Source of the DNA: an uncultured bacterium
GTDB lineage: Bacteria > JAAXHH01
Length of the DNA: 41,274 nt
NCBI GenBank assembly: GCA_913051705.1
Contig: CAJXCW010000014.1
Location: forward strand, 1 to 41,274
Direction: 5' to 3'
The notes under the pieces were generated by a model. It was not told the DNA's origin. It did no database searches and saw nothing but the letters and a program-made list of their open reading frames with translations. Every line of letters starts with the position of its first letter. Position 1 is the first letter of the stretch. Below are positions 3,154-34,276 of this stretch, piece by piece. Made by a program: the position numbers and the translations under genes.

Positions 3154-3250
3154 AACTACGAAGCTACGAAACTACGAAGCTACGAAACTACGAAGCGGGG
3201 CGTAGATTCCATCTGCCTTTGATTCGTCGTTTTGTCGTTTCGTAGCTTCC
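3154..3250. repeat. Octamer tandem array AACTACGA/AGCTACGA (x5) with inverted arm (hairpin-forming)
   Basis: Alternating AACTACGA AGCTACGA AACTACGA AGCTACGA AACTACGA at 3154-3193. Perfect 12-nt inverted match AAGCTACGAAAC (3161-3172) / GTTTCGTAGCTT (3237-3248). Confidence 0.9.
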
Positions 3251-8190: not shown

Positions 8191-9156
8191 ATGATCAACA
8201 TGCAATTATTGCATTCTATTGGTCGCTGGACCGGTCTGGTGGGATTTATCGCTGCTTTGATAGGCGCCGGCATCGCCTGTACTCAGGACCCTATGACCCA
8301 GCAGATGGTGTGGGTGGACCGTGGGGGCAATGTGTTAGAAAAAATTGGGGATCCTCAGGTGATTATCACCGGAACTATTCTATCGCCGGATCAGAAGGTG
8401 GTCGCCGTACGAGGGCGTAACATTGCGGACGGGAATGACGACATATGGGTGTATATGTTGGAAAACAACGGCAGAAAAATGCAGAAGACCTTCCATTCGT
8501 CAAACGAGCGTCAGCCGGCCTGGGCGCCCGACGGTAAGAGTTTGATCTATTTTTCGTATCGTAACGGACCGGCCAATATGTATAAAATCACCGAAAATGG
8601 GAAAGAAGAAGAGTTCCTGATCCTGCCTCATGAGACCTATGCCCCGTCCTGGTCGTCAGACGGGAAGTATATCGTCTATCATTTGCATAATCAAGAGGAT
8701 AAGGAACATGACAATCGGGATCTATGGTACATAAATCCAGAAGAGCGCAAGCCCATGCAGTTTACCGATACGCCGGCCTTCAAAGAAGCGATGCCTCAAT
8801 TTTCGCCCAATGGTAAATACGTGGCTTATGTAGCGGATGAGACCGGCACATGGGAAGCCTATGTAAAAGCGTTTCCGGCCGGCGACAAACCCTTCAAAAT
8901 TTCCTCCAACGGCGGCGCTTATCCCCGCTGGAGTGGTACAGGCGATGAGATTTTTTTCTGGGAAGGGAATGCTTTGATGGCGGCCTCGGTAAACACAGAA
9001 GGCGACTTCAGTATGGAGACGCCTCAAAAGCTGTTTACCGGCGAGCAGGTAGGTATGGGACCACGACCGGTCGGCGGGTTCAATACCATCTATGAAGTTG
9101 CACCGGACGGTCAAAGATTCATCGTGGTACAAAACAGCCTGCAACCACGGCAGTAA
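8191..9156 (+). CDS. TolB/PD40-like beta-propeller protein, probable exported/lipoprotein
   Basis: Repeated PD40 motifs (QPAWAPDGKSLIYFSYR, APSWSSDGKYIVYHLH, MPQFSPNGKYVAYVADETG, YPRWSGTGDEIFFWEG); hydrophobic N-terminus ending in a Cys. Confidence 0.75.
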   Translation: MINMQLLHSIGRWTGLVGFIAALIGAGIACTQDPMTQQMVWVDRGGNVLEKIGDPQVIITGTILSPDQKVVAVRGRNIADGNDDIWVYMLENNGRKMQKTFHSSNERQPAWAPDGKSLIYFSYRNGPANMYKITENGKEEEFLILPHETYAPSWSSDGKYIVYHLHNQEDKEHDNRDLWYINPEERKPMQFTDTPAFKEAMPQFSPNGKYVAYVADETGTWEAYVKAFPAGDKPFKISSNGGAYPRWSGTGDEIFFWEGNALMAASVNTEGDFSMETPQKLFTGEQVGMGPRPVGGFNTIYEVAPDGQRFIVVQNSLQPRQ

Positions 9157-10647: not shown

Positions 10648-10675
10648 TACAAACCTCCATGGGAAAGGGCAAATT

Positions 10676-10759
10676 GCGAAACTACGAAACTACGAAACTA
10701 CGAAGCTACAAAACTAAACATTGATTCATCAGTTCGCGATTCGTAGTTTCGTAGTTTTC
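10676..10759. repeat. Octamer tandem array ACTACGAA (x3 perfect plus degenerate) with inverted arm
   Basis: ACTACGAA x3 at 10681-10704, then GCTACAAA ACTAAACA; inverted arm GATTCGTAGTTTCGTAGTTTTC at about 10738-10759. Same word as the 3154 locus. Confidence 0.9.
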
Positions 10760-18114: not shown

Positions 18115-18285
18115 TGGTGATTGACTGATTGGTGATTGACTGATGGATTTCGATTCGCTCAATCGAAAGTATTGAACGCCTCTTCGAGACTTTATTAGAA
18201 CGCGCTTCGCTCGCTTTGCTTTTGGTGATTGACTGATTGGCTTTTTTCTTTTCAATCACCAAATCACCAATCACCAATCACTAAT
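18113..18285. repeat. Composite GGTGATT/GACTGATT array with internal hairpins and inverted arm
   Basis: ATTGGTGATTGACTG x2 (18113-18142), hairpin TTTCGATT-CGCTC-AATCGAAA (18148-18168), further TTC-loop hairpins, TTGGTGATTGACTGATTGG, then inverted CAATCACC AAATCACC AATCACC AATCACT. Confidence 0.88.
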
Positions 18286-23372: not shown

Positions 23373-23410
23373 TTACCCACAATCACCCATCAAAAATGAC
23401 CCATCACCAA
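23373..23410. repeat. Heptamer array ACCCACA ATCACCC ATCAAAA ATGACCC ATCACCA spanning the hpnE stop codon
   Basis: Period-7 words; the minus strand encodes the HpnE C-terminus KLVMGHF-stop from this array. Confidence 0.65.
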
Positions 23411-24853
23411 TTTCATGATCCCTTCCATCGGCACCTCCGGCAGGAGTACCTTCTGTGGCTTGTCAAAGACACTTAACATGGCCTCCGCACTTTGGTAGCC
23501 GCTCCGGACCGCACTCTCCATGGTCGCCGGCCAGCCGGTCTGCGTCCAATCGCCAGCTACGAACAAATTGGAAATCGGGCTTACCGGTCCAGGTCGTAAC
23601 GGGTCGCAACCGGGTTCAGGGGCAAACGTCGCCCGACCTTCTTTGACCACGATGGCCTTTAGAAGTTTGGCCTCTTGAACAGCAGGAAAGATCGATTTGA
23701 GATCTTCCAGCGCCTGTTGAATAATCACCTGTTGCGGCTGCTTCATCCATTCATTCGAGGCGCTGACCACCAGGCCGAGATACGTACCCGATTCGGTGGA
23801 TGAAAAGGCATCGGGATCCCGTATGGTCTGATTAAATATCCATTGAATCGTCCGTCCCAATACAGCGACGAAGTCCAGATCCATGACCGGGCGATCTAAC
23901 CACACGTGTACAGCCGTAATCGGTGAAACGTCCAGACGCTGTAAATTGTTGAAGTAGTCCCAACGAGCTACTTCTGTGTCGGGGAGCATTTTAAGAAGTA
24001 TATCAAAAGGCAGGGCAGACAAATAGGCATCCGCCTGAACGGTCGTCCCATCCTGCAACGTCATCCTCGTAATGCGCGTATTATCTACAGCCATTTCGGT
24101 AATACCCTGGTCGAGGATAACACGGCCACCTCGCTGCTCCAGATAGTCTATACAGGGGGCATATAAATCACCCAGCGGCACCACGGGCAGGCCGACCTGA
24201 TAACCCTGCCTGTTGGATAGAAACGCCTTTACAATAGTCATGATACCGTATTCGGCGTCTATATCATCCAATTCGTCATTCAACGCGCTGATTAGAATCG
24301 GGCGCCACAGGGCCTCTATCGACCGCTCGGTCGCCCGGTGGGATTTAAGCCAGTTTTGCATGGAAAGCGGCAGGTGGGCAGATGTAGGAGCCTTATTGCC
24401 CTCTTGCCCACCTGCCCTCTTTCCCACCTGCCCACCTGCCCTAGTATGCCATATCATATGCACCATGGCATAGCTGACGGACAGTTTATCTTTCCATCCC
24501 AGGAATTTAAGCCGAAAGAAGGAGGGCAGCAGATGTAAAGGCACGGGAAGCGGAGAACTCTGGATGACGGAGATCCGGTTGGCCTCATCTATGAAGGGAA
24601 CACGATCCTGGAATACAATGCCGTTTTCAACACCGAGTCTGGTGTAAAAATCAATCAGATTGGCACAACACCGTAAAAGGACATGCTGGCAATTGTCGAC
24701 CAGTTCGCCGCCGGCAGGATGGACAAACGAGGAAGCTCGACCGCCAAGAATGGTCCGGCGCTCATATAACGTGACCTTCAGGCCGGCATCCGCTAATGCC
24801 ACCGCGCCGGCAAGACCGGCAAGTCCGCCACCGATCACAATGACATCGTTCAT
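23390..24853 (-). CDS. hpnE: Hydroxysqualene dehydroxylase HpnE (phytoene desaturase-like FAD protein) with repeat-derived in-frame insertion
   Basis: MNDVIVIGGGLAGLAGAVALADAGLKVTLYERRTILGGRASSF; 4-bp overlap with upstream hpnD; adjacent hpnC and hpnD. Confidence 0.88.
   Translation of the reverse strand: MNDVIVIGGGLAGLAGAVALADAGLKVTLYERRTILGGRASSFVHPAGGELVDNCQHVLLRCCANLIDFYTRLGVENGIVFQDRVPFIDEANRISVIQSSPLPVPLHLLPSFFRLKFLGWKDKLSVSYAMVHMIWHTRAGGQVGKRAGGQEGNKAPTSAHLPLSMQNWLKSHRATERSIEALWRPILISALNDELDDIDAEYGIMTIVKAFLSNRQGYQVGLPVVPLGDLYAPCIDYLEQRGGRVILDQGITEMAVDNTRITRMTLQDGTTVQADAYLSALPFDILLKMLPDTEVARWDYFNNLQRLDVSPITAVHVWLDRPVMDLDFVAVLGRTIQWIFNQTIRDPDAFSSTESGTYLGLVVSASNEWMKQPQQVIIQQALEDLKSIFPAVQEAKLLKAIVVKEGRATFAPEPGCDPLRPGPVSPISNLFVAGDWTQTGWPATMESAVRSGYQSAEAMLSVFDKPQKVLLPEVPMEGIMKLVMGHF
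24369..24440. repeat. Nine-unit octamer array (72 nt) inside hpnE, seven units in one orientation and two inverted
   Basis: GGCAGGTG GGCAGATG TAGGAGCC TTATTGCC CTCTTGCC CACCTGCC CTCTTTCC CACCTGCC CACCTGCC; translated as ..AGGQVGKRAGGQEGNKAPTSAHLP.. Confidence 0.92.
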
Positions 24854-25734
24854 ACACGTTTTTGGATTAATGCCTGGGCGGCAATCGCCAGTTTCTTCCA
24901 GGCTGAAAGACGGATTCGCCGGCGATAAACATCATAATTTCGCCGTTCGATTTCATAGAGATTCTGCCGATAAATACGAATCATGGCAGCCAGACAGGCC
25001 CGGCTCGACGGATGAATAAGCGGTAAGAGCGGTAAGGCTTCTTCATAGTGCTTTTTAGCCCGGTCTACTTCAAAGGCCATTAACTGCGTGAACCGATCAT
25101 CAATGACCCCCTGTCGGATATCCTCTTCCGTATAACCGTAGGTCTCAAGATCTTCCTGAGGAAGATAAACCCGGTCCATCTTCACATCTTCCTGGATATC
25201 CCTCAGGATATTGGTGAGTTGAAAGGCAATACCACAGGACTCGGCATACCGTTTGGCGGATTCATCGGTAAAACCGAAGATGTGTATACATACGAGGCCT
25301 ACAGCTGAAGCCACACGATAACAGTACTGATACAGGTCCTCGAACGTCGGGTACCGGGTGACGGAAAGATCCATCTCCGCCCCGTCAATGATGGCTTCGA
25401 AATAGGATTTAGGAATCGAGAACTGCTCAACCGTATCCTGAAACGCGGGAAGGATAGGATGACTCAATCCATTCGACGAGGCGTAGACCTCATCCAGGCC
25501 GTCACGCCATTGGTCTAGCTGTGTTCTTTTTTCGGCATTCGAACCGCCTTCATCGACCATATCGTCGCAATACCGCATAAAGGCGTACACCGCACATATG
25601 GCACGCCGCCGCTCTGTCGGCAAAACAATGAAGGAATAATAAAAATTCCCCGCCCGCGTCCTGGCTACCTGGCGGCAGTGGTGGTAAGATTTGGTGATCT
25701 GGTGATTTGGTGATTTGGTGATTGTCTGACTCAT
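24850..25734 (-). CDS. hpnD: Presqualene diphosphate synthase HpnD
   Basis: ARTRAGNFYYSFIVLPTERRRAICAVYAFMRYCDDMVDE and DILRDIQEDVKMDRVYLPQEDL-type motifs of trans-isoprenyl head-to-head synthases. Confidence 0.9.
   Translation of the reverse strand: MSQTITKSPNHQITKSYHHCRQVARTRAGNFYYSFIVLPTERRRAICAVYAFMRYCDDMVDEGGSNAEKRTQLDQWRDGLDEVYASSNGLSHPILPAFQDTVEQFSIPKSYFEAIIDGAEMDLSVTRYPTFEDLYQYCYRVASAVGLVCIHIFGFTDESAKRYAESCGIAFQLTNILRDIQEDVKMDRVYLPQEDLETYGYTEEDIRQGVIDDRFTQLMAFEVDRAKKHYEEALPLLPLIHPSSRACLAAMIRIYRQNLYEIERRNYDVYRRRIRLSAWKKLAIAAQALIQKRV
25689..25728. repeat. Octamer array GATTTGGT (x5, slightly degenerate) overlapping the hpnD 5' coding end
   Basis: GATTTGGT GATCTGGT GATTTGGT GATTTGGT GATTGTCT; encodes QTITKSPNHQITKS at the HpnD N-terminus. 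Confidence 0.9.
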
Positions 25735-25758
25735 TTAATTCATTTAATTCATTTAATT
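25732..25758 (-). repeat. 9-nt tandem repeat (AATTAAATG x3) carrying the hpnD start codon and two minimal ORFs
   Basis: Minus strand ATG AAT TAA ATG AAT TAA ATG AGT CAG: two Met-Asn-stop ORFs in frame with the hpnD start. Confidence 0.85.
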
Positions 25759-25769
25759 GAGTATGAGGT

Positions 25770-26702
25770 CTAAAACATCCGTTTCAGCATATACCTGAGC
25801 ATTAAGCTGACTTTTTTTTGCTTGGAGAGAGAAGGACGCCGTGACAGGACATCAAAGCCTTGCTTTTCAATTTGGTCCAGTATGGCTAACCCACCGCGAT
25901 TAAACAACTCAATATCTCCTCTGACCCGTTTATCGAGAAGAGGACACAACCGCAATCCTATGTCGAACAATGCACGGGTGCGGTCCACCTCAAATCGTAT
26001 CAGATCAGTAAACCGATCATTAACAATACGGGTATGCAGGTCCGATTCATTATAATTAAATCGGTCAAGGTCTTCCAGCGGCAGATAAATACGGCCTTTG
26101 CCCAAATCCACCGAAACGTCCTGCCAGAAGTTGGCTAATTGCAGCCCCGTGCAAGTTGCATCGGATAGTTGCTGCCTCTCTTCGTCCCGGTATCCACATA
26201 GATAGAGCACCAGATGGCCTACCGGATTGGCAGAATAACGGCAATAGTCCAGCAGGGTCTCATAAGTCTCATATCGTTGCACAACCTGGTCCTGCCGGAA
26301 AGCGGTCAATAAATCCCGAAACGGTGTGATCGGGATATCAAAATGATGAATTGTTTCTTCTAATGCAATAAAAACAGGATGATGGGGATGCCCTTCATAG
26401 CATGCCTGCAACTCACCGTCCCACCAATCAAGCAGCTTTACAGATCGGACCGGATCATCAATCTCATCCGCCAGGTCGTCCGACCATCGGCAATAGGCGT
26501 AGACAGTATAAAAATGTGGCTGTAACGGTTTGGGCAAAAGCCAGGATACCACGGTGAAATTTTCATAATGACCGGTGGCCAGATGGCGGCAATACTGCCG
26601 TGAAGCTTCAAGAGAAAGATGGGCGTCATCAGGCAGGACATCCAGCGCGAGGGTGTCAAGACTCAGGGCATCTTCGGGCAGATAGGAGAGGGAACGGGGC
26701 AT
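25770..26702 (-). CDS. hpnC: Squalene synthase HpnC (hydroxysqualene synthase)
   Basis: ATGHYENFTVVSWLLPKPLQPHFYTVYAYCRWSDDLADEIDDP and ANFWQDVSVDLGKGRIYLPLEDL. Confidence 0.92.
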   Translation of the reverse strand: MPRSLSYLPEDALSLDTLALDVLPDDAHLSLEASRQYCRHLATGHYENFTVVSWLLPKPLQPHFYTVYAYCRWSDDLADEIDDPVRSVKLLDWWDGELQACYEGHPHHPVFIALEETIHHFDIPITPFRDLLTAFRQDQVVQRYETYETLLDYCRYSANPVGHLVLYLCGYRDEERQQLSDATCTGLQLANFWQDVSVDLGKGRIYLPLEDLDRFNYNESDLHTRIVNDRFTDLIRFEVDRTRALFDIGLRLCPLLDKRVRGDIELFNRGGLAILDQIEKQGFDVLSRRPSLSKQKKVSLMLRYMLKRMF

Positions 26703-34210: not shown

Positions 34211-34212
34211 TT

Positions 34213-34276
34213 GTGCTTTGTACCTGGTACTTTGTTTTTTGCCGTTACCAAGTACAAAGCACAAAGTACAAAGCAC
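34213..34276. repeat. Heptamer array AAGTACA/AAGCACA with inverted arm (hairpin)
   Basis: GTGCTTTGTACCTGGTACTTTG (34213-34234) and AAGTACA AAGCACA AAGTACA AAGCACC (34250-34277); between convergent polB and glmS. Confidence 0.9.

Follow-up and report, generated by a model that had tools for sequence, protein, structure and literature searches.

The in-frame octamer hairpin of hpnE is a member of a short tandem repeat family scattered through one lineage's genome

The locus described here raises the question of how an octamer-periodic, inverted segment with an open frame came to lie inside hpnE, a gene on the minus strand, and what kind of repeat it represents. The segment spans positions 24369-24440 of the window, i.e. 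the whole stretch of 41,274 nucleotides from an uncultured bacterium (contig CAJXCW010000014.1) that was analyzed. To our knowledge, arrays of 7-8 nt repeats have been described in scattered bacteria and have no established mechanism of spread.

The hpnE product matches the HpnE model TIGR03467 over its full length with 435.1 bits (curated cut-off 283.05), and its top match among solved structures is the rice phytoene desaturase 5mog. It is presumed to be a working hydroxysqualene dehydroxylase. No second good match to hpnE occurs in the 5.45 Mb genome, so that the gene is present as a single full-length copy. The genes hpnC, hpnD and hpnE stand in a row, all on the minus strand, with the start of hpnD placed at 25590 by the hexamer gene caller, versus 25734 for the open reading frame. 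A 9-nt unit, TCATTTAAT, was found by TRF in three perfect copies at 25731-25758 of the window, adjoining the octamer array ahead of hpnD. The features are summarized in Table 1.

Table 1. Genes and repeat features of the window, with strand and supporting observations
Feature	Position	Strand	Observations
hpnE, hydroxysqualene dehydroxylase	23390-24853	-	TIGR03467, residues 4-460; array-bearing
Hairpin 3' arm in mRNA, CATCTGCC CACCTGCC	24369-24384	-	inverted repeat; RNA fold
Non-repetitive hairpin loop	24385-24397	-	unit match chance-like, 4/8 positions (by inspection)
Run of about 5.4 octamer units, GGCAGGTG and variants GGAAAGAG, GGCAAGAG	24398-24440	-	TRF; direct-repeat family D1, spacing 8
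Hairpin 5' arm in mRNA, two GGCAGGTG units	24425-24440	-	inverted repeat I1, 16 nt, 94% complementary to 24369-24384
hpnD	24850-25734	-	TIGR03465, 297.5 bits vs 278.6; directly upstream of hpnE, overlaps hpnE start
Octamer array, GATTTGGT units	25688-25729	.	precedes hpnD or sits in its over-extended start
hpnC	25770-26702	-	TIGR03464, 333 bits vs 250
Intergenic octamer hairpin, CTACGAAG-type units	3154-3249	.	arms 3160-3186, 3223-3249
Intergenic octamer hairpin, CGAAACTA-type units	10671-10757	.	arms 10679-10696, 10740-10757
Heptamer hairpin, TTGGTGA/TCACCAA units	18221-18285	.	arms 18221-18232, 18252-18263
Heptamer hairpin, AAGTACA/AAGCACA units	34211-34276	.	arms 34211-34229, 34246-34264

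Read on the plus strand, the segment runs GGCAGGTG GGCAGATG, then TAGGAGCCTTATT, then GCCCTCTTGCCCACCTGCCCTCTTTCCCACCTGCCCACCTGCC. An arm of two units (16 nt) is followed by 13 nt of non-repetitive loop, beyond which about 5.4 units run in the opposing direction; TRF reports period 8 and 5.6 units at 24397-24441 only. The original prediction had counted exactly nine units, seven in one direction and two in the other. This count is not borne out: two of the seven, TAGGAGCC and TTATTGCC, agree with CACCTGCC at no more than 4 of 8 positions and make up the loop. Its argument that nine units, as a multiple of three, keep the frame is uninformative, since any surviving gene needs a net length change divisible by three. 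The outer 16-nt arms show 94% complementarity, and the sense-strand RNA folds in silico into a structure whose outer stem has 16 bp, at -41.7 kcal/mol (z -4.11; none of 200 shuffles was as stable). No match to an Rfam family was obtained within the window. The hpnE copy is degenerate (units CTCTTGCC and CTCTTTCC) and could therefore be old or locally grown. Its flanks, GGAAAGC on the left and CTAGTAT on the right, show no target-site duplication.

The segment is one member of a repeat family that is scattered over the genome and specific to this lineage. Allowing at most one mismatch, the double unit CACCTGCCCACCTGCC has 89 matches in the 5.45 Mb genome, 41 of them forward and 48 reverse, while its reversed control has none in the same genome; with this result and the complementary arms, the predicted octamer-periodic, inverted, in-frame segment proved to be real. 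Fifteen other genomes of the same order (a phylum-wide search gave the same 16 genomes) hold between 0 and 2 matches each. A heptamer word of the CAATCACC type behaves likewise, with 92 matches in this genome and 0 in the other 15. The CACCTGCC word forms 56 clusters, of which 42 are intergenic, 13 lie at gene edges and one, that of hpnE, is inside a gene. In 21 of the 56 both strands carry the word within 60 nt; for comparison, 8.6% of random 160-nt windows have it on a given strand. Comparison of the flanks revealed no shared loops or flanks among the clusters. Unlike GGTGATT, for instance, the CACCTGCC unit contains no stop codon in any of the six frames.

Arrays of this kind were surveyed in a sample of 841 kb of the genome taken in stretches, alongside targeted regions. 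Among periods from 4 to 24 the abundant ones are confined to 7 (24 arrays), 8 (27 arrays), their multiples and their sum; no such array arose in shuffled sequence. Neither 400 kb of a sister genus nor 324 kb of a third genus contained any period-7 or period-8 array; the arrays of the third genus have mainly coding-type periods of 9, 12 and 15. Extrapolation from the sample gives a genome total of a few hundred arrays. Some arrays of period 15 alternate 7-nt and 8-nt units (L105 14663-14700, L125 8435-8475), which suggests that unit lengths of 7 and 8 arise from a common process.

Genes in the sample were called with a simple hexamer gene caller, by which 86% of the sampled DNA is coding. Of 155 clusters, 120 are intergenic, 32 lie at gene edges and 3 fall inside predicted genes. 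One of these, at L191 1844, probably reflects a wrongly called start; a heptamer CCCTCTT run in the N-terminal region of a predicted membrane protein (L176 5099-5130) is the only other plausible in-gene array sampled. Since a single CACCTGCC cluster in 56 is inside a gene, the hpnE copy is the exception and not the rule. Of the broader proposal that arrays move into or expand within genes and are tolerated, tolerance is supported for hpnE, where the array lies in a predicted disordered loop; a general habit of entering genes is not supported, given the 3 of 155 clusters inside genes in DNA that is so largely coding.

Many arrays are hairpins with both arms built from one word. The excess of inverted arms is based on a strict set of 54 arrays, 15 of which reach an inverted-repeat score of at least 16, compared with 7 of 162 control intergenic sites; in the loose set of 155 the excess is weaker (30 of 155 vs 6 of 155 at a score of at least 15) and the medians are equal. 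At L092 1813-1837/1886-1910 the arms pair at 25 of 25 positions, variant units included, suggesting that one arm may have been copied from the other. The last four arrays of Table 1 are all intergenic, have inverted partner arms and use four different words. An intergenic repeat of larger size, containing the GC palindrome GAACGCCTCTTCGAG...AGAACGCGCTTCGCTCGCTTTGCTTTT, lies beside TTGGTGATT arrays at about 18190-18260 of the window, at L092 ~8552-8653 and at L179 ~2800, and together they form a composite repeat that is possibly mobile. A second common flank, GGACACGATGCGAGCCCTTCGGG, adjoins heptamer or octamer arrays at L105 16371, L125 8434 and L175 374. The median distance of arrays is 19 nt from gene 3' ends versus 46 nt from 5' ends, and when counts are divided by gap lengths, divergent gaps hold fewer arrays per kb. 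Such placement would fit terminators or plain avoidance of promoters.

The array encodes AGGQVGKRAGGQEGNKAPTSAHLP, residues 139-162 of HpnE, which fall between helices 120-138 and 165-171. An AlphaFold2 model from an 18-sequence alignment has a mean pLDDT of 87.8, and its sole stretch below 50, residues 143-160, places the array-encoded residues in a predicted disordered loop between the two helices. Measured as the residue count from K123 to W168, this loop has 45 residues here. Within the same family it spans 33-67 residues: 33 is the length in the sister genus and 35-67 the range in the third genus, where A/P/S-rich sequence fills it. Distant homologues have 23-28. These differences in length and filling indicate a loop that was already free to vary. 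A 15-nt coding repeat at L193 12045-12104 (genome G002 of the third genus) is an independent repeat at the equivalent site.

The sequence of residues 139-162 is absent from all HpnE homologues compared, in agreement with the earlier statement that the peptide is foreign to the family pattern; as none carries the segment, none has the same residues lacking octamer periodicity. A scan of genome contigs for HpnE returned mainly distant homologues. The nearest HpnE, all from outside the genus, are 61-68% identical, and no empty-site allele was found. The clean 24-codon insertion originally envisaged is at odds with the alignment: without the 24 array residues a loop of 21 would remain, which is below all homologues examined (23-67) and makes such an insertion unlikely. 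The array probably replaced part of the already variable loop, or an insertion was accompanied by a deletion.

We consider it likely that a copy from a short tandem repeat family peculiar to this lineage came to lie in a tolerant loop of the enzyme and forms the hpnE hairpin. The family comprises 7- or 8-nt units, often arranged with inverted arms on either side of a short unique loop and normally intergenic, and one copy occupies, in frame, the predicted disordered loop of HpnE. There it can persist because the loop tolerates changes in length and sequence, the word is stop-free and the net length keeps the frame. Its effect on the enzyme is most likely close to neutral, and the stable hairpin in the mRNA would be a by-product. 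The CACCTGCC word may have reached hpnE from elsewhere in the genome; the shared word and the matched arms favor transfer or templated copying. No flanks are shared and no target duplication is present, which speaks against an ordinary transposon. These absences would also suit expansion in place, i.e. amplification of a chance unit-like word in the loop through replication slippage or template switching and not by transfer from elsewhere. Relatives carry independently evolved repeats in the same loop, for instance the 15-nt repeat of G002, and for 7-nt repeats an origin by polymerase slippage has been put forward (PMC4679880, PMC4692102). We nevertheless regard expansion in place as unlikely, because the hpnE word is the genome-wide one with inverted arms, and independent convergence on CACCTGCC is improbable given the zero matches of the control.

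The stability of the predicted RNA fold and the position of other arrays close to gene 3' ends could point to a selected regulatory element in the hpnCDE transcript, acting on pausing, mRNA stability or downstream translation. The hairpin is, however, missing from hpnE of all relatives compared, sits some 410 nt into the coding sequence, in contrast to almost every other copy, and matches no Rfam family, so that we judge such a function very improbable. An ordinary low-complexity protein segment that merely resembles the repeat family is scarcely credible: although the loop of relatives is also of low complexity (A/P/S-rich in the third genus), their coding repeats have periods of 9, 12 and 15, whereas a period of 8 is not a multiple of three, and the words are those of the intergenic family with 16-nt inverted arms. 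The genome-wide family brings this reading close to refutation. Beyond membership in the repeat family, the lineage might have an active process, e.g. templated or template-switch synthesis, that writes 7- and 8-nt words as inverted pairs. The sites would be unrelated to each other and now and then within genes, with neither shared flanks nor a target-site duplication, and hpnE would then preserve one captured event. We think this quite unlikely; if it were true, the number of units in hpnE would vary between strains.

The hpnE copy mainly demonstrates that a disordered protein loop can absorb such a repeat. By extrapolation the genome contains a few hundred arrays, inverted hairpins in many cases, and one copy lies in a conserved enzyme; the sampled DNA of the sister genera has no array of these periods. 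This makes the genome a clean setting in which to study the spread of such words.

Among known repeats, the cyanobacterial STRR are arrays of 7-nt units which are mostly intergenic and hairpin-capable, with the hoxW case near the 3' end of the preceding gene (PMC2670836). The present family resembles them in its many dispersed, mostly intergenic arrays of one short unit (89 double-unit matches; 120 of 155 clusters) and in its hairpin potential. It differs in that 8-nt units are as common as 7-nt units, many words co-occur, one copy lies in a conserved protein gene and the host belongs to another phylum; as the hpnE copy has 8-nt and not 7-nt units, in a genome that also has 7-nt arrays, it is STRR-like only. 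The TAACTGA repeats of marine Beggiatoaceae, with 169 sets in one draft genome, are mostly intergenic, with a few copies in reading frames, and lineage-patchy (PMC4679880). They use one 7-nt word in essentially direct orientation (one indirect), with stops in all forward frames, and in-gene copies are mostly at protein ends or in hypothetical proteins (PMC4679880). Both families are dispersed, mainly intergenic and patchy among lineages, but units of 7 and 8 nt, many words and inverted arms distinguish the one described here. The heptamers GGGAATC and GGGGA(C/T)T of Xanthomonas and Nostoc form many intergenic arrays nearer one end of a neighboring gene, each lineage with a single G-quadruplex-forming word; inverted arms are not described in the sections of that source consulted (PMC4692102).

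Rickettsia palindromic elements (RPE) are dispersed palindromic repeats that occur in frame in protein genes and are apparently compatible with the protein fold (review PMC10969869). The hpnE copy is likewise a palindrome in frame within a protein gene and, like an RPE, is tolerated by its host protein. RPEs, however, measure about 150 bp and form defined families, whereas only the 8-nt word is common to the copies described here, loops and flanks differ and almost no copies are in genes. Membership in RPE or MITE families was rejected, as the CACCTGCC clusters contain no constant element of about 100-150 bp and there is no target-site duplication. The kind of repeat to which the hpnE hairpin belongs is already known from other bacteria; this copy is an exceptional one.
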